The notes under the pieces: model-generated
What the model saw: only the letters and a program-made list of their open reading frames with translations
Databases searched by the model: none
What the model was told of the DNA's origin: nothing
Shown here: piece after piece, positions 8,957-43,875 of the stretch
How the letters are laid out: each line of letters opens with the position of its first letter
Numbering within the stretch: position 1 is the first letter of the stretch
Made by a program: the position numbers and the translations under genes
IMG/VR virus record: IMGVR_UViG_3300024346_000109
Span: 1 to 49,235 of that record
Reading direction: 5' to 3' (one strand)
Length of the DNA stretch: 49,235 nucleotides
Source of the DNA: a virus

Positions 8957-9121
8957 ATGTTTTCGAATGAACTATCAGAACTTCTTGACGAAATCCGAGA
9001 GATTGAAATCTATGGTAATAATCCCCAAAACTGGATGGGTTACTTGGCATCTGATGACTATTATGTGACAGAAGAAGAACTGGCACACAGGGCACTCTCG
9101 ACCCCTCTGGATGCCCTATAA
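8957..9121 (+). CDS. Hypothetical protein with module-encoded C-terminus, 54 aa
   Basis: MFSNELSELLDEIREIEIYGNNPQNWMGYLASDDYYVTEEELAHRALSTPLDAL. The last 15 residues (EELAHRALSTPLDAL) are encoded by the promoter/terminator module, and the TAA stop lies within its TATAAT box. The same tail ends the gene at 12381, on the far side of the restriction-like island, so this gene marks the island's left junction. Confidence 0.65.
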   Translation: MFSNELSELLDEIREIEIYGNNPQNWMGYLASDDYYVTEEELAHRALSTPLDAL

Positions 9122-9123
9122 TA
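9063..9123 (+). repeat. Left 61-bp direct repeat of the island
   Basis: Includes GACAGAAGAAGAACTGGCAC, the CGACCCCTCTGG segment and TATAATA. Differs from 12841-12901 at two positions (G/A and T/C). Encodes the tail of the 8957 gene and carries the -10 for the nuclease gene. Confidence 0.9.
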
Positions 9124-9149
9124 TGTTAGTAATTGAATGAGTTTTTATT

Positions 9150-10343
9150 ATGGGTGCCGGTTCACAAAAAGATCATTATATTCAGGATGCTGCTGAACTG
9201 GATTTTGTATATCGTATACAAAAACTTCTTGCTTCTGACAATCTTTCTGTAACTGATAGTGCCCAAATAAGAAAGAAAGAATTTAAAGATCGCCTTAGTG
9301 ACAAGAATATTATTTCTGCCTATAACTCTAGTGACTATAAACTATGTTTAGATATAAATCTACTCAAAGTTTATAATTGCTTGATATCTTATCGCCCAGG
9401 AATAAAATTTGATGTTTTCTGGATTGCCAAAGATGGTAGAAATGAAAGTAAAAAGGGTGATCTTGTTGTTGTCTATCAGGATGGCAAGATAGTTTCATTT
9501 TCACTCAAAGTTTATGCTAAGGATAATGGTATTCCTAATATTCAAGTTCGTAGCGGTACTTTTAACTCGACTTTCCTATCGATTATTCTGAAAGATTATA
9601 CTCTTCCAAAAGTGGGGATGTATAGAAATCCCATTCCAAAAAATGAATGGAAGTCATTTTGCAAATGTCCTTATAAGGATAAGTTTAGTGGTGGCAAATC
9701 TCTAAAGATTAGAGATGCTGTTCTTCGGTATCTTGGAATGGAAGATGCCATTGAGGTTCTTCATCAACTTGACCAAATTAAAGACGATTCGATCAATCGA
9801 TTTAAAAACGATCCTACCACTAGGAATATTTTTAATGAAGGTGTAACGGATGCCTGGGAGAATCAATGTCATGTCGCCGGTCATTCTGCTTCATCTTTGA
9901 TCGTTAATTATCTTAAGAATAAAGGAATTGATCTAAAATCGTTTATGCTCAATCAAGTTGGATTTTCTGGTGATGAGGAACTTATTGTACTTTCTAAAAA
10001 AGAATCTTTAATTAGCACCAGTAATCCAACTTATCAAAAGGTTGTTTCTCGTTGTCTATCTCAAAACTCTAATTTGGATTATAACGTAAGAGGACAAGGT
10101 ATTGAGTTTGTTTTTAGGGATGATGATGGAGACATTATTGAGATAAACATGCCATTTACTCTGAATAAAAATGGTGCTTGGTGGTCAAGGTGCGCCCAAT
10201 TTGATGGTAAGAGACCATACCCAGGAAAGGGGAAAGATGCAGGAACTCTACTAGAATATGGGGAATGGAGACCACAAAAATCTCAGGAAATGGCAACCAG
10301 CACAAACACATACGTTCAGTTAAAGAAGGCAGGAGTGTGTTGA
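9150..10343 (+). CDS. Putative PD-(D/E)xK-type restriction endonuclease
   Basis: 397 aa. A nuclease-like core lies at about residues 86-140: FDVFWIAKDGRNESKKGDLVVVYQDGK, then VSFSLKVYAK, with D104 and S118-x-K120 matching the D-(S/E)xK pattern of restriction enzymes. IQVRSGTFNSTF follows, as often seen after the SLK strand in such enzymes. A pair of cysteines (FCKCP) lies at about residue 170. It is followed by methyltransferase-like genes, which supports a restriction role. The specific family (HaeIII-like is one thought) is not established. Confidence 0.55.
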   Translation: MGAGSQKDHYIQDAAELDFVYRIQKLLASDNLSVTDSAQIRKKEFKDRLSDKNIISAYNSSDYKLCLDINLLKVYNCLISYRPGIKFDVFWIAKDGRNESKKGDLVVVYQDGKIVSFSLKVYAKDNGIPNIQVRSGTFNSTFLSIILKDYTLPKVGMYRNPIPKNEWKSFCKCPYKDKFSGGKSLKIRDAVLRYLGMEDAIEVLHQLDQIKDDSINRFKNDPTTRNIFNEGVTDAWENQCHVAGHSASSLIVNYLKNKGIDLKSFMLNQVGFSGDEELIVLSKKESLISTSNPTYQKVVSRCLSQNSNLDYNVRGQGIEFVFRDDDGDIIEINMPFTLNKNGAWWSRCAQFDGKRPYPGKGKDAGTLLEYGEWRPQKSQEMATSTNTYVQLKKAGVC

Positions 10344-10367
10344 TTTGTTATGTGAATTGAAACCCAC

Positions 10368-10396
10368 TTGAAACTTTCATATATAACTGGTATACT
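10368..10396 (+). promoter_or_regulatory. sigma70-like promoter inside the island
   Basis: TTGAAA (10368-10373), 17-nt spacer, TATACT (10391-10396). It lies 25 nt before the ATG at 10422 and could let the ParB-like/methyltransferase genes be expressed separately from the nuclease. Confidence 0.6.
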
Positions 10397-10421
10397 TGAA
10401 GCACACTTGAACAAAACTATA

Positions 10422-11510
10422 ATGAACATCACAAAACTTGGAACACTTGGAGCAATCGACCTTAATTTATTTCCATCCCCACCTGCAGCAACTCTTAATG
10501 CTGGATATAGGTGGATTGATGGTGGAAAAGTAATTTTAATACCAACAGAAAAATATATACCCGATTATGAGTGTGATCCAAACACTCTAAAAGATGATGA
10601 AACAAATTATAATTCTTTAGAAAGTAATATTTTATCAGAGGGATTTGATTATTCCTTTGAACCTGCTTATGTAACGTATGACGAAAAAACAGATACTTAT
10701 TCTGGAAAATCCGGTAGAACTCGACAAAAAATTTTTGCAAATCACAAAATTCCATATTATCCAGTGCGTTTACTGGAAGCAGTTCCTAATTATGATGTAA
10801 AAACATCTGACTTCTGTGTATCTTTTATTGCTGATATTAGTCACAGACCCCACAGAGAATTAACTTGGTCACAAATAGCACAAAAATTGACACATCAAAA
10901 AAATAAAGGGATTGCTTGGTATCATGGACAAACTAAAAATTTACTTACAAAAGAATATGTTTTTGGATATGATGAATATAAGCATTTTTATTATAATGTG
11001 GGAAAAGTAAACCAAAAATTTGTTGCTGAACGTATGTGCAATCAAATATGGAACAAAATTGAAGAAGGATTTAATTCAACAAAAAGTATTAACATTTTAA
11101 GTAAAGAAAAAATTGAAAATATAATTAATGAAAATGTTTTGGGTGATGGTAGTGATGGATATATGATAGTACCACTTATTATGGATAATGCCAGCGCAAA
11201 TGCTCCAAGTAAACTATTTGCACTGTGTAAAGATCCTAGTAAAAAAGTTAGACAGATCTTATATTCATCAAAAGCAAAAACTCCAGATGATATTCTTAAT
11301 CTAAGAAATTCTTGGAGAGATTCACTTATTACACAGGCAAATAATATTATTTCTTTTGCATTATCTGGCGTTGTTGCACCCGAAATGATAGAAAGTGTCA
11401 AGGAAGATAAATTAAAGAAACTTTTTGCAAATTTTGAACTCTACGGGTATAATCATATTGAAGATGAGGAAGATTTTGTAAAGATTGATATGTTTGCCAA
11501 ATACTTTTAA
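10422..11510 (+). CDS. ParB-like (putative) protein of the restriction island
   Basis: 362 aa from the ATG; the frame is also open from a TTG at 10368, but that overlaps the promoter. Residues about 70-130 contain EGFDYSFEPAYVTYDEKT, GKSGRTRQKIF and KIPYYPVRLLEAV, resembling the ParB/Srx fold in which a GxxRxxA-type motif binds a nucleotide. The rest is helical and lysine-rich and unrecognised. Adjacent to methyltransferase halves, it may be a specificity or accessory subunit. Inference only. Confidence 0.55.
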   Translation: MNITKLGTLGAIDLNLFPSPPAATLNAGYRWIDGGKVILIPTEKYIPDYECDPNTLKDDETNYNSLESNILSEGFDYSFEPAYVTYDEKTDTYSGKSGRTRQKIFANHKIPYYPVRLLEAVPNYDVKTSDFCVSFIADISHRPHRELTWSQIAQKLTHQKNKGIAWYHGQTKNLLTKEYVFGYDEYKHFYYNVGKVNQKFVAERMCNQIWNKIEEGFNSTKSINILSKEKIENIINENVLGDGSDGYMIVPLIMDNASANAPSKLFALCKDPSKKVRQILYSSKAKTPDDILNLRNSWRDSLITQANNIISFALSGVVAPEMIESVKEDKLKKLFANFELYGYNHIEDEEDFVKIDMFAKYF

Positions 11511-12403
11511 TGAAATTTGATGTAGTAGCAACTAATCCACCATTTCAGGATTATACAAATAAAAAGAAAACACAACATAAATTATGGATTGATTTTACTC
11601 GTTGTGCATTTGACAAGTGGTTAAAACCTGAAGGAATACTTCTTCAGGTTTCTCCTAGTAGTTTCTTATCTCCATCAAGTAAGATTCTTAAGTTGATGCA
11701 AGAAAAGGATGTAAAGTATTTGAGATTAGATACCAAGAAGTATTTTTCCAAAGTTGGAAGTACATTTGCGGATTATCTCATTTATAATCAACCAAGTGAA
11801 AGAATCACGGAAATTATTACTGATAAAGGTACGTTTGGGCAAACAATTGATTCTACAATCTTTTATTTGCCAAATGATATAAGTCTAGAATCTTTAGAAA
11901 TTCATAGAAAGATTATTTTTAACACTACCAAAAAATTAAATGTCAAATATGATTATGTAACTTGTCATAATGTATTGATTCATCGTAATGATACTATTAG
12001 TAAGATAGAAACAGAAGATCATATTTACCCAATTTTTCATACTAATGTTAAGGTTTGGTATTCTAAAATTCGCCAAGACTGGGGTAATAGAAAAAAAGTA
12101 ATGTGGTCTCGTAGTGGATATACCAAACCATTTTATGACAATGGTGTTTATGGTGGTACGGATATGATATACTATGTACTGGTTGATGATGATATTAGTG
12201 GGAAGAATCTTGAAAACAATCTCAATACTAAATTAATCAAATATCTATTCAAGACTGCCAAGTGGTCGGGATTTGGTAACGAAAAAGTATTCTGTGCCCT
12301 ACCAGATCTCCCTACTGATTGTGCAATGTCAGATTTACAAATGTATGAGTTGTTTAATTTAACTAAAGAGGAGCAATCTTATGTCGAAAATTATATGGGA
12401 TAA
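11510..12403 (+). CDS. DNA N6-adenine methyltransferase, catalytic/target half
   Basis: 297 aa starting with FDVVATNPPF: the NPPF motif IV sits at residues 9-12, so the SAM-binding motif I region normally in front of it is missing. Following text (AFDKWLKPEGILLQVSPSSFLS, LRLDTKKYFSKVGSTFADYLI) is typical of Eco57I/TaqI-type methylases between motif IV and the target-recognition region. The missing half is encoded by the next gene. TAATG overlap with the ParB-like gene. Confidence 0.72.
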   Translation: MKFDVVATNPPFQDYTNKKKTQHKLWIDFTRCAFDKWLKPEGILLQVSPSSFLSPSSKILKLMQEKDVKYLRLDTKKYFSKVGSTFADYLIYNQPSERITEIITDKGTFGQTIDSTIFYLPNDISLESLEIHRKIIFNTTKKLNVKYDYVTCHNVLIHRNDTISKIETEDHIYPIFHTNVKVWYSKIRQDWGNRKKVMWSRSGYTKPFYDNGVYGGTDMIYYVLVDDDISGKNLENNLNTKLIKYLFKTAKWSGFGNEKVFCALPDLPTDCAMSDLQMYELFNLTKEEQSYVENYMG

Positions 12404-12899
12404 GATTAAAGATTTTATGAATGATCACTCATATATGGGAGAGATTGATCGTGATGAATATCGTATCAAAGAAACAGCAGAAATCTTTACTCCTACTAAT
12501 TTGGTAATTGATATGCTACAGAAAACTGATCTTGATTGCTTTTTACCAGGTAAAACAGTTCTTGATCCTGCTTGCGGAGATGGACAGTTTCTTGTTGCGA
12601 TTAAATATGTCAAAGTTTTAATACACAGAATGACCGAATTTGACGCACTAAAAGATATTTACGGAGTTGATATTATGCGTGATAATGTTGATTTATGTAA
12701 GAAAAGATTAGGAGGAGGTACAATTTTAGTTGGGGATTCATTAAATCCTGATAAAAAAATTGACTATCAGACTGATTATGAACATTTTATGATGAAAAAA
12801 ATTTTCTCGAATCAAAATACGGTGTATAATTATATGACTAATGTGACAGAAGAAGAACTGGCACACAAGGCACTCCCGACCCCTCTGGATGCCCTATAA
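12381..12899 (+). CDS. DNA methyltransferase SAM-binding half, with module-encoded tail
   Basis: 172 aa. TAEIFTPTNLV (about 32-42) and motif I VLDPACGDGQFLV (60-72), then IYGVDIMRDNVDLCKKRL and VGDSL, i.e. the region that in normal enzymes precedes NPPF. It ends abruptly and continues as VTEEELAHKALPTPLDAL, the tail encoded by the right direct repeat. It overlaps the upstream half by 23 nt and has an AGAGGAG site. Together the halves make a permuted, split enzyme; activity is untested and truncation is possible. Confidence 0.7.
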   Translation: MSKIIWDKIKDFMNDHSYMGEIDRDEYRIKETAEIFTPTNLVIDMLQKTDLDCFLPGKTVLDPACGDGQFLVAIKYVKVLIHRMTEFDALKDIYGVDIMRDNVDLCKKRLGGGTILVGDSLNPDKKIDYQTDYEHFMMKKIFSNQNTVYNYMTNVTEEELAHKALPTPLDAL

Positions 12900-12901
12900 T
12901 A
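12841..12901 (+). repeat. Right 61-bp direct repeat of the island
   Basis: 59/61 identical to 9063-9123. It ends the 12381 gene inside TATAAT and provides the -10 and the GGTTCATAC leader for the gene at 12923. Confidence 0.9.
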
Positions 12902-12922
12902 GGTTCATACAACGGAACACCG

Positions 12923-13387
12923 ATGACGACCACCTTCGCTGACTATGCCGCTTCTGCCCCTGCCAGAGAGCAAATCGCGGACAACATCCTGAAGCACACT
13001 CTTTCTCTGTGTGAGGCACTGCGGCAGAACTTTATTGACTACTCCATTCGCAGTCATCGGGGTAATCTGGAAAGGCATCCCGATGAAAGTGCCGAATATC
13101 ATGAGAAATGTATTGCCGACCTGAAGGATGGCAAATCCAACTATGACTTTGTGATTGAGAGTGGTCGCAAGTATCATAAGATTGTGATGGTGATTGATAA
13201 TGGTCCAGATCGTTCTCCTTCCCGTTCTTGTCATGCCTTCATAAATAAGAAGTCTGGTGGAGTTTTTAAGTCAAGTTCATGGAAGGCGCCCGCAGCGGGA
13301 GAAAGGTATAACCTTCTTCTAATTAAAGACCGGGAGTGGGCTCTATCAAATGCTGACTGGTCTGGATCATGGTTGTACAAACGCTAA
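12923..13387 (+). CDS. Conserved hypothetical protein, 154 aa
   Basis: Helical N-terminal half (AREQIADNILKHTLSLCEALRQNF), then a compact beta part (YHKIVMVIDNGPDRSPSRSCHAFINKKSGGVFKSSSWKAP, REWALSNADWSGSWLYKR). Higher G+C and different codon use from the island before it, consistent with native phage DNA. No function known. Confidence 0.7.
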   Translation: MTTTFADYAASAPAREQIADNILKHTLSLCEALRQNFIDYSIRSHRGNLERHPDESAEYHEKCIADLKDGKSNYDFVIESGRKYHKIVMVIDNGPDRSPSRSCHAFINKKSGGVFKSSSWKAPAAGERYNLLLIKDREWALSNADWSGSWLYKR

Positions 13388-13927: not shown

Positions 13928-14026
13928 ATAGTAATACCTAATTTGGTGGTTCTTTTTAGGTTGGGATAAAGCACCTTTGGGTGCTTTTCCTGTATAAATA
14001 ATAATAACCACCAAATTAGAATAGAA
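13923..14026 (+). promoter_or_regulatory. Homing-endonuclease leader element 3, perfect 14-bp stem
   Basis: Left box TCTAAATA (13923-13930), 7 nt, left arm CTAATTTGGTGGTT (13938-13951), hairpin AAGCACC-TTT-GGGTGCTT with T run, inner TATAAATA (13993-14000), right arm AACCACCAAATTAG (14006-14019). The arms are a perfect 14-bp inverted repeat, and the ATG is 7 nt further on. Confidence 0.82.
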
Positions 14027-14851
14027 ATGAACTATCTAAAGCATTATTGTAATCTTATCAGGAAAGCAGAGAATAGAACTCCACCTGAAGGATATACAGA
14101 AAAGCATCATACTTTTCCTAAAAGTATTTTTGGAAACAATAATAGAATTGTAATCTTGAGCGGAAGAGAACATTATATTGCTCACTCTTTATTAGAAAAA
14201 GTTTGTATTCAAAGATATGGATTAAAACACGGGAAAACACAAAAAATGATTACCGCATTCTGGTGTATGAATAATCAAAACACCAAGAATGAATATTTTA
14301 ATTCTTATCTTTATGAGGGTGCTAGAGCGAGAAAAAGTTTATTGATGTCTGGTGAAAATAATTATATGTATGGGCGAACCCACAAAGATATATCCAAAGA
14401 AAAAATACGCACAGCACATACAGGCAAAAAACTTTCAAAAAATACTAAAAATAAATTAAGTATAATAGCAAAAAACCGCAAACAACATCCTATGCTTGGA
14501 AAAAAACAATCACCAGAAACCAGAGCAAAAATAAGTGAAAAAAATAAAGGTAGAAAAATTTCAAATGAATTAAAAGAATATTTTAGTGTAAAATATACAG
14601 GAGAAAATAATCCTTACTATGGGAGAAAACATTCACCAGAAGTTATAGAAAAAATGAACGGCGAAAATCATCACAAATCTATGTGGTGGAAAATTACACT
14701 TACTGATGGGAGTGTGATTGAAAAATGTGGATTAACAACGTGGGCAAAAGAAAATAAGTATAACTGTAGTGCTATTCGCAGATTAGCAGATAAAAAGATT
14801 AAAAGATATAAAAACGTTGTGTCAGTTGAAAAACTGGCACAACACAAGTAA
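14027..14851 (+). CDS. HNH-type homing endonuclease with NUMOD3 repeats
   Basis: 274 aa. Core EKHHTFPKSIFGNNNRIVILSGREHYIAHSLL is the phage HNH variant, followed by NUMOD3 repeats (GRTHKDISKEKIRTAHTGK, GKKQSPETRAKISEKNKGR, GRKHSPEVIEKMNGENH) and a MWWKITLTDGS / LTTWAKEN C-terminal DNA-binding part. Its last residues EKLAQHK are encoded by the ACTGGCACA box of the following module. Despite the different nuclease fold, it has the same leader design as the GIY-YIG genes. Confidence 0.85.
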   Translation: MNYLKHYCNLIRKAENRTPPEGYTEKHHTFPKSIFGNNNRIVILSGREHYIAHSLLEKVCIQRYGLKHGKTQKMITAFWCMNNQNTKNEYFNSYLYEGARARKSLLMSGENNYMYGRTHKDISKEKIRTAHTGKKLSKNTKNKLSIIAKNRKQHPMLGKKQSPETRAKISEKNKGRKISNELKEYFSVKYTGENNPYYGRKHSPEVIEKMNGENHHKSMWWKITLTDGSVIEKCGLTTWAKENKYNCSAIRRLADKKIKRYKNVVSVEKLAQHK

Positions 14852-14898
14852 TCTTTCGCCAAAATCAGTTATAATACAATTATCCAATAAACTACATT
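14834..14898 (+). promoter_or_regulatory. Promoter module
   Basis: ACTGGCACA box inside the upstream coding end, no strong hairpin, then TATAAT at 14870-14875 and the leader to the ATG at 14899. Confidence 0.6.
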
Positions 14899-15378
14899 AT
14901 GATTATTGCCGCAGGATTATTTCTTGAAACCACAGGTTATGGATACTCAAAGCGTCTATGTAAGGATGTAGTATGCTGGTTTGTATCCAAGTATTTTCCA
15001 CGACATAAATTGGAAATCGAGGTTCTTCATCGTGGATTAAACCGCGAAGGAGCATTAGGATATTGTGATGTTGCGGATAAAACCTATAGACCTCGCAGTT
15101 TTTTGATTGAGATGAATACTCATATGAATAGGGAAACCTATATTACAGTTTTACTCCACGAGTTGATACATCTTCAGCAGTGGGTAAAAGGAGAACTCAA
15201 ATTCAAATCATCCAAAAGATACTTTAATGGTGAGTGTATGGAGGATTATGAGTATATGGATCAAAAACACGAAATAGAAGCACACTCTCAAGAAAAAGTT
15301 CTGTATGGCGAATACATCGCAGAAAAATATCCAAAAACAATCAAATACTTTCCCAATCGCCTTCTAAACACACTATGA
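14899..15378 (+). CDS. SprT-like zinc metallopeptidase
   Basis: 159 aa. HELIHLQQ gives the HExxH zinc site (H87-H91) after a helical TYITVLL, preceded by a beta region with RPRSFLIEMN. A later HEIEAHSQE may supply the third ligand. SprT-like proteins occur widely in T4-like cyanophages; the substrate is unknown (DNA-protein crosslinks in cellular relatives). First gene of a short operon to 16581. Confidence 0.72.
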   Translation: MIIAAGLFLETTGYGYSKRLCKDVVCWFVSKYFPRHKLEIEVLHRGLNREGALGYCDVADKTYRPRSFLIEMNTHMNRETYITVLLHELIHLQQWVKGELKFKSSKRYFNGECMEDYEYMDQKHEIEAHSQEKVLYGEYIAEKYPKTIKYFPNRLLNTL

Positions 15379-25651: not shown

Positions 25652-26134
25652 ATGGGTCTTGATATGTATCTCTATGCCGAAAAGAGATTTGGTTTTTGTA
25701 GTTGGGATAAAGAAGGAAAGGATAATGAAAAGTTTGATAAACTTGTAGAGTTTGCAGAACTGAGTGATGTTGTGGATAAACAAATTGGGTCTGTTTCCGC
25801 ATATGTCAAAGTTGAAGTTGGGTATTGGCGAAAGGTAAATGCCATTCACGAATACTTTGTGGGTAACTGTGCTAATGGTGTAGATGAATGTCAAGAGATT
25901 AAAGTTTATCGGGAAACTTTGGTTGCTCTGAAAGATATTTGTGGTCAACTGAGTTTGACTAAAGATGTAGAACAAGCAAAAAAACTTCTTTCCCCTAAAG
26001 GTGGTTTCTTCTTCGGAAGCACTGAGATTGATGAATACTACTTTGATAAGATTGAATACACTTATGAACTTCTGACTAAGATTCTGGAAAATACACCAGA
26101 AGATTATGACTTCATCTATCGAGCATCCTGGTAG
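25652..26134 (+). CDS. Conserved phage protein, MGLDMYLYA family, 160 aa
   Basis: Begins MGLDMYLYAEKRFGFCSWDKEGKDN and contains VGYWRKVNAIHEYFVGNCANGVDEC, hallmarks of a widely distributed tailed-phage family of unknown function. Complete length for the family. Sits alone between two promoter modules. Confidence 0.75.
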   Translation: MGLDMYLYAEKRFGFCSWDKEGKDNEKFDKLVEFAELSDVVDKQIGSVSAYVKVEVGYWRKVNAIHEYFVGNCANGVDECQEIKVYRETLVALKDICGQLSLTKDVEQAKKLLSPKGGFFFGSTEIDEYYFDKIEYTYELLTKILENTPEDYDFIYRASW

Positions 26135-28223: not shown

Positions 28224-28706
28224 ATGAAAATCAACGGATACGAAATCAAACCCAGTGCTGACCTTGAGGGTGCTAACCTTGAGGGTGCTAACCTTGAGGG
28301 TGCTAACTTTAGGGATGCTAACCTTAATGATGCTAACCTTATGAATGCTAACCTTATGAATGCTAAACTTTGGTGTGCTAAACTTAGGGGTGCTAACCTT
28401 GAGAGTGCTGACCTTAAGGTTGCTAACCTTGAGGGTGCTGACCTTGAGGGTGCTAACCTTCGGGGTGCTAACCTTTGGGGTGCTAAACTTAGGGATGCTA
28501 ACCTTGAGGGTGCTAACCTTGAGGGTGCTAACCTTGTGAATGCTAACCTTGAGGGTGCTAACCTTTGGGGTGCTTACCTTATGGGTGCCGATGTAACAGG
28601 AACTATTCTTGAGAAGAAAGAAGATGATAAAGACCTTAAGATTAAAGAACTTGAAGAAGAACTGAAGAAATATAAAGATACACTTAAGGCACTTTTAGAC
28701 ACTTGA
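28224..28706 (+). CDS. Pentapeptide-repeat protein, long form, 160 aa
   Basis: About 23 tandem A(N/D/K)Lxx pentapeptides (residues about 12-126) predict a right-handed quadrilateral beta-helix, as in MfpA/Qnr-type DNA mimics, although many such proteins have other roles. A charged coiled coil follows (LKIKELEEELKKYKDTL). DNA repeats of 15 nt (GCTAACCTTGAGGGT) make copy number unstable. Shares identical ends with the short form at 28778. Confidence 0.85.
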   Translation: MKINGYEIKPSADLEGANLEGANLEGANFRDANLNDANLMNANLMNAKLWCAKLRGANLESADLKVANLEGADLEGANLRGANLWGAKLRDANLEGANLEGANLVNANLEGANLWGAYLMGADVTGTILEKKEDDKDLKIKELEEELKKYKDTLKALLDT

Positions 28707-43651: not shown

Positions 43652-43875
43652 TGAAACTCAACAAAGCACAATTCGAACAGTTCGTTGATAACTATGCCAA
43701 CCATATTATCGATGGGTTGGATAATGATTCTATGGAGATTATGCTCTTTGATCTACTCACCTCACAGTATAGTAACTATACTCAAGAGTTTATTGTTCGT
43801 GAGATTGAAGAACTCTATGGTGAGGAATTTGCTCAAGATTTGTTAGAATCGGCAACTGATGTGCCAGTCACATAA
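43651..43875 (+). CDS. Hypothetical helical protein, 74 aa
   Basis: QFEQFVDNYANHIIDGLDNDSMEIMLFDLLTSQYSNYTQEFIVREIEELYGEEFAQDLLE. Ends DVPVT, encoded by the left half of the next dyad. Families of this kind are common in cyanophages. Confidence 0.65.
   Translation: MKLNKAQFEQFVDNYANHIIDGLDNDSMEIMLFDLLTSQYSNYTQEFIVREIEELYGEEFAQDLLESATDVPVT

Follow-up and report, generated by a model that had tools for sequence, protein, structure and literature searches.

Apparent insertion of a restriction-modification-like gene island into a promoter-hairpin module of a probable T4-like cyanophage

Here we have analysed a 49-kb virus contig from IMG/VR (record IMGVR_UViG_3300024346_000109, positions 1 to 49,235; hereafter the window), in which an island of genes resembling a restriction-modification (R-M) system lies between two direct copies of a promoter-like module. 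The original prediction for this DNA, made from its letters alone, was of an R-M-like island gained by exchange at repeated regulatory modules. The features of the locus are as follows.

8957 to 9121, + strand: gene g8957, 54 amino acids (aa), with its final 18 codons inside the module; homologs lie directly 5' of the DUF7717 gene in most relatives.
9063 to 9127, + strand: left module copy with dyad, hairpin and TATAAT box, defined by the repeat, alignment to the related contig L006 and folding.
9128 to 12840, + strand: inserted island of 3713 bp, missing from the related contigs L006 and L005.
9150 to 10343, + strand: putative nuclease gene, 397 aa, with a GD-x(13)-SxK signature.
10422 to 11510, + strand: gene for an optional protein labelled 'ParB-like', 362 aa; translation might instead begin at a TTG at 10368.
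11510 to 12403, + strand: MTC, the methyltransferase half with motif IV (NPPF); Pfam Eco57I 5e-6, PHROG 3689 3e-14.
12381 to 12899, + strand: MTN, the methyltransferase half with motif I (DPACGDG); Pfam N6_Mtase 2e-5, PHROG 21201 4e-17.
12841 to 12905, + strand: right module copy, made of a cut-off g8957 end, dyad, hairpin and TATAAT box, running on like L006 into the DUF7717 leader.
12923 to 13387, + strand: DUF7717 gene, the right neighbour; Pfam PF24835 1.6e-39.

The nearest isolate by DNA (BLAST against phage records) was Synechococcus phage S-SRM01, with 3% covered at 83%, and the gene order around the island is common to the window, S-SRM01 and many contigs. The window virus is probably a T4-like cyanophage with a freshwater cyanobacterial host, the host being read from the relationship to S-SRM01. 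Near and distant BLAST searches against phage records found no isolate with the island region, and tRNA and Rfam scans of the window gave zero matches. All compared loci are metagenome contigs, several of them near-duplicates, and locus counts are not event counts. The island has a G+C content of 32.0% against 37.1% and 37.7% in its flanks, in agreement with the prediction that it is the more AT-rich.

The segments 9063-9123 and 12841-12901 are identical at 59 of 61 positions, as originally stated, and this likeness exceeds both chance and ordinary promoter similarity. The ungapped score of the pair is 56, against at most 11 at random control places the same distance apart in the window and at most 15 in the stricter control, the upstream regions of the 94 other predicted open reading frames (ORFs). 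The window holds about 27 such modules, nearly all on the + strand, built from the dyad TGTGNCANTT-N4-AANTGGCACA, in most cases a hairpin rich in GC, and a TATAAT-like box. A T-run 3' of the hairpin is present in some modules but absent from the island pair, and no -35 box was found at ordinary spacing in the modules. The left copy is probably the promoter of the island and the right copy probably that of the DUF7717 gene. Among the 351 pairs of the 27 modules the median identity is 63%, and the island pair shares second place at 95%; pairs as alike or more alike come from a second family of modules, located at 26-32 kb. Convergence of promoters alone was rejected as the source of the repeat on these module-pair identities and the upstream-region control.

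Comparison with relatives identifies the site as it stands without the island. L006 is about 97% identical in DNA to the window on both sides of the island. The two blocks of matching sequence have 65 bp of L006 in common, and these 65 bp are one module, from which each window copy is one base off. The 5' side of the single L006 module resembles the left flank of the window and the 3' side resembles the right flank. The usual arrangement in relatives is g8957-module-DUF7717, and among loci collected with the DUF7717 protein and then with the g8957 alignment, 63 of the 72 in the second set that were readable across this junction are empty (IMG/VR contigs, window excluded). Relatives without the island had been expected to carry one module, as L006 and these empty junctions do. 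An artefact of assembly around the repeat has to be considered, as the window is a metagenome contig, repeats of such length can mislead assemblers, and no contig other than the window held the left junction in an exact scan, in a set from which close relatives may have been missing (the right-hand module-DUF7717 sequence was found in the L006 contig alone besides the window). We regard misassembly as highly improbable, given that the copies are two bases apart, the fusion of MTN to the module is in frame, and the same pattern recurs in independent contigs (L088 and L089, which come from two datasets, L130 and L227).

The polarity of the insertion can be read from the ends of two genes. The product of g8957 ends in VTEEELAHRALSTPLDAL and that of the 12381 gene (MTN) in VTEEELAHKALPTPLDAL, and the stop codon of both is the TAA inside the TATAAT box, as expected if the left gene and the last island gene share a module-encoded tail. 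The right copy begins within the coding end of g8957, and its in-frame fusion adds 18 residues to MTN, relatives of which stop near residue 145-157 without the module-encoded tail. Since both genes end at this TAA and the right copy holds a truncated g8957, the module was evidently first at the g8957 end and the island was placed after it; the cut-off g8957 3' end likewise indicates an insertion with a target duplication of 61-65 bp. Comparison of the loci thus shows the island as an insertion into the g8957/DUF7717 module that duplicated 61-65 bp, at the place that had been predicted. The counter-case named beforehand was an ancestral island with both modules independently conserved, lost in relatives through recombination between modules. 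Direct repeats readily lose what lies between them, which would likewise leave one module, but the right copy carries the truncated end of g8957, most relatives are empty, distant ones included, and the island combines parts from different lineages, so that we give this explanation almost no credence.

This composite origin is apparent from the individual genes. MTC and MTN are 92% and 84% like those of L088, whereas the nuclease is 65% like that of L085 and only 33% like that of L088, and DNA identity between the window and L088 jumps at the MTC start codon. On these identities the island is a mosaic. The same cassette is found at other sites between promoter copies of 48 bp at 94% (L088/L089), 37 bp exact (L130) and 25 bp at 96% (L119). 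Set against the upstream regions of other ORFs of their own contigs, the flank repeats of the window, L088/L089, L130, L119 and L227 are conspicuous. The originally proposed exchange at repeated regulatory modules has independent cases in L227 (same site, different insert) and in L088/L089, L130 and L119 (other sites). Weighing against this explanation, only 10 of 26 cassettes exceed every upstream region in their own contig, several narrowly, and insertions in L032/L069 occupy the same site as the island without module duplication. Flanking duplication is mostly missing, and therefore either the older insertions have lost theirs through decay or there is a further route.

That one cassette occurs at more than one site, next to target duplications about 25-65 bp long, could also be explained if the R-M cassette is a mobile unit that itself makes long target duplications, for which promoters are merely tolerated landing places and not the recombining sequence. 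R-M units with long, variable target duplications have been reported (PMC3031569, PMC3874152). We consider this unlikely because L227 has the same duplication around a gene without methyltransferase or nuclease, the -10 box marks the end of the duplicated segment in the window, in L088/L089 and in L227, and nearly identical copies of promoters are also present at places other than the cassette.

Another potential agent lies close by. Window positions 13928-14919 hold a NUMOD3 homing-endonuclease-like gene between g13392 and g14899, which is not in L006 and lacks a module duplication. A break made by a homing endonuclease or recombinase, whether this HNH/NUMOD3 gene at 14027 or an island protein without a family, might have started the insertion; the 14027 gene is a second insertion only about 1 kb away, and the 10422 protein matches PF07508 Recombinase, though below threshold (E=0.048; 0.0089 at best, in a relative). 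We think such a break quite improbable, as the 14027 insertion went without module duplication and the 10422 protein is missing from L088/L089 and L130, the flanks of which are still duplicated.

Occupation of the g8957-DUF7717 junction is not peculiar to the window. At the same junction, L032/L069 carry a T5orf172-ResIII protein together with a further methyltransferase that is split and permuted, L180 carries a 210-aa protein with a beta-class methyltransferase, and L227 carries a 303-aa protein with a ParB-like motif between 48-bp module copies at 90%, its insert having no methyltransferase or nuclease. Other inserts occupy this junction in L190/L191, L199/L235 and L236, and in L017 the DUF7717 module is joined to a beta-class methyltransferase. 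A C-terminal tail encoded by the module, for example VPVEEVAQDPQNPLLEAL, recurs in methyltransferases of several unrelated families, which end at the -10 box or just past it (L006 7986-9711, L013 5188-5982, L017 9090-9977, L034 7576-8358 and others).

Over the wider interval from the 8600 gene to DUF7717, at least one DNA methyltransferase is present in 26 of 42 non-redundant loci, the kinds including beta, D12/Dam, gamma, split, 5-methylcytosine (m5C) and phage Dam enzymes. Pfam methyltransferases make up at least 27 of 129 interval ORFs versus 3 of 148 ORFs sampled in the 3-kb flanks (p = 2e-7), a flank sample that takes in the same cassette in L092. Judged by these counts, the interval is a hotspot for DNA methyltransferase systems. 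Between g8600 and g8957, L005 (7490-9188) and L006 (7986-9711) have a different putative R-M pair, missing from the window, which consists of a candidate nuclease of 205-214 aa, bearing the motif EVK or EIK, and a 377-aa methyltransferase.

Both methyltransferase halves that had been predicted in the island are backed by Pfam and PHROGs matches. With NPPF (motif IV) at the start of MTC and DPACGDG (motif I) in MTN, the two look like one N6-adenine methyltransferase of known fold type, cut before motif IV and with the order reversed (IV before I). In L093, L142, L149 and L151 the halves are fused as a single, still permuted chain. The nearest solved structure to MTN is M.BseCI. The DPACGDG and NPPF motifs and the Pfam matches to corresponding parts liken the pair to gamma-class N6-adenine methyltransferases (Eco57I, N6_Mtase), from which it differs in its permuted order and in its division, ahead of motif IV, into two overlapping genes. 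Bacterial genome contigs (L107-L112; Cellulomonas, Geodermatophilus, Curtobacterium and others) also hold split homologs with this gene order, and in L108, a contig of a metagenome-assembled genome, they adjoin the putative nuclease gene. MTC had no tblastn match in phage records, and a literature search on split or permuted methyltransferases found no direct precedent.

The 9150 protein had been described as PD-(D/E)xK-like. Among 37 homologs E16, K102, D104, S118, K120 and Q132 are invariant, and D104 and S-x-K120, invariant in 37/37, lie on adjacent predicted strands. The AlphaFold2 (AF2) model has a mean predicted local distance difference test (pLDDT) score of 81.5. The protein had no significant Pfam profile match and its model no PDB fold match, and the three best matches in a BFVD search with the model were phage proteins without informative names. 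The invariant GD...SxK signature is compatible with the earlier description. Homologs are linked to MTC-MTN in about 30 viral loci, and a PD-(D/E)xK nuclease is a plausible identity on the strength of the signature and this linkage. Homologs also occur in isolated cyanophages, P-RSM6 (CPXG_00166) and S-SZBM1 (SSZBM1_24), the loci L097 and L098, where they are annotated as hypothetical and no MTC-MTN follows.

The 10422 protein appears in seven cassettes, each time between the nuclease and MTC, and is missing from most. In favour of its 'ParB-like' label are a motif and a profile match, a weak one, to a second ParB-like candidate. The label was not confirmed, since no match in Pfam or the PDB, a ParB domain included, reached a useful threshold. 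The protein had no tblastn match in phage records.

Elsewhere in the window, members of the second module family stand at 26131, 27795, 28973 and 31950; they are 87-97% alike, each lies before a separate small gene, and they may represent further module-mediated gene gains. Modules at 43860, 46226, 46715 and 46987 have a common leader, CTGACC(C/G)T(G/C)TAGACTTTAAGAGTAAACCAAGCAACC, with a different -10 region. Tandem 15-bp repeats at 28225-28658 lie in an ORF for pentapeptide repeats (GANLE).

Comparison of the loci has shown one-module empty sites, a duplication, an in-frame MTN-g8957 fusion, the same cassette at other sites and repeated occupation of the g8957-DUF7717 site by other systems. 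Building on these, we consider it likely that an R-M-like cassette with a putative self-marking and cutting function inserted into the g8957/DUF7717 promoter-hairpin module by recombination at module edges, with duplication of the module. Joining of the donor would have taken place during phage replication, through recombination at homology or microhomology or through template switching, with the -10 box on the left and the operator dyad on the right as the probable joining points, and would need no dedicated recombinase. The duplicated module would place a promoter before the newcomer and leave one for the DUF7717 gene. The permuted, split methyltransferase may then mark the phage's own DNA, while the linked putative nuclease may cut unmarked host or competing phage DNA. 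Classical transposition was rejected on the lack of a transposase match, the variable duplication lengths and the fact that no terminal inverted repeats were noticed. The proposal that the gain was transposase-free holds insofar as the island has no transposase or integrase family match (Pfam, PHROGs), and is tempered by two of its four genes having no assigned family.

More tentatively, and with less than even confidence, we suggest that promoter-hairpin modules with a frame open into the next -10 box could be a general docking site in T4-like freshwater cyanophages. Newcomers would splice to the module 5' edge and gain a C-terminal tail, a stop and a downstream promoter, with the module duplicated, and diverse R-M systems would turn over rapidly, arming lytic phages against each other.

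These findings provide a sequence-level record of a T4-like phage apparently gaining an R-M system without a transposase, and tie gene gain to promoter modules in cyanophages. They point to the 8600-DUF7717 interval as a place to find many DNA methyltransferase systems, and describe a compact cassette with a permuted, split adenine methyltransferase common to phages and bacteria. If the enzymes work, lytic cyanophages would carry weapons against rival phages or host DNA.

The individual pieces have precedents, although we found no report of the combination of cyanophage promoter modules with what appears to be a permuted, split methyltransferase. Phage defence hotspots (PMC9122126) likewise hold variable restriction-like cargo between conserved phage genes, and the interval here contains diverse defence-type cargo in such a setting; the difference is that the carriers are T4-like cyanophages, not prophages or satellites. 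R-M units that had inserted with long duplications of their target (Nobusato 2000, Furuta 2010; cited in PMC3031569 and PMC3874152) are, as described there, similar to the present case in the R-M-like gene group, the empty site in a close relative and the direct duplication of tens of bases. They differ from it in that the phage here is of lytic type, the duplicated target is a promoter module, and cargo other than R-M genes is also involved. Promoter-early stem-loop cassettes (PeSLs) shuffle genes in T4-type phages (Arbiol 2010, doi 10.1093/gbe/evq006; Comeau 2014, doi 10.1093/gbe/evu129; as cited in PMC4503421), and PeSL exchange was judged unlikely for cyanophage S-PM2 (PMC4503421). On the account given there, the likeness lies in small repeated promoter and stem-loop units bordering exchanged genes in T4-like phages: the window has 27 dyad sites at gene borders, most with a hairpin and -10 box, and movement of genes by recombination between copies is indicated by comparison of loci. 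In contrast to PeSLs as so described, the window modules are of other sequence with an operator-like dyad, occur in cyanophages with methyltransferase-rich cargo, and are often traversed by the frame of the upstream gene, whose stop falls at the -10 box or just beyond it.
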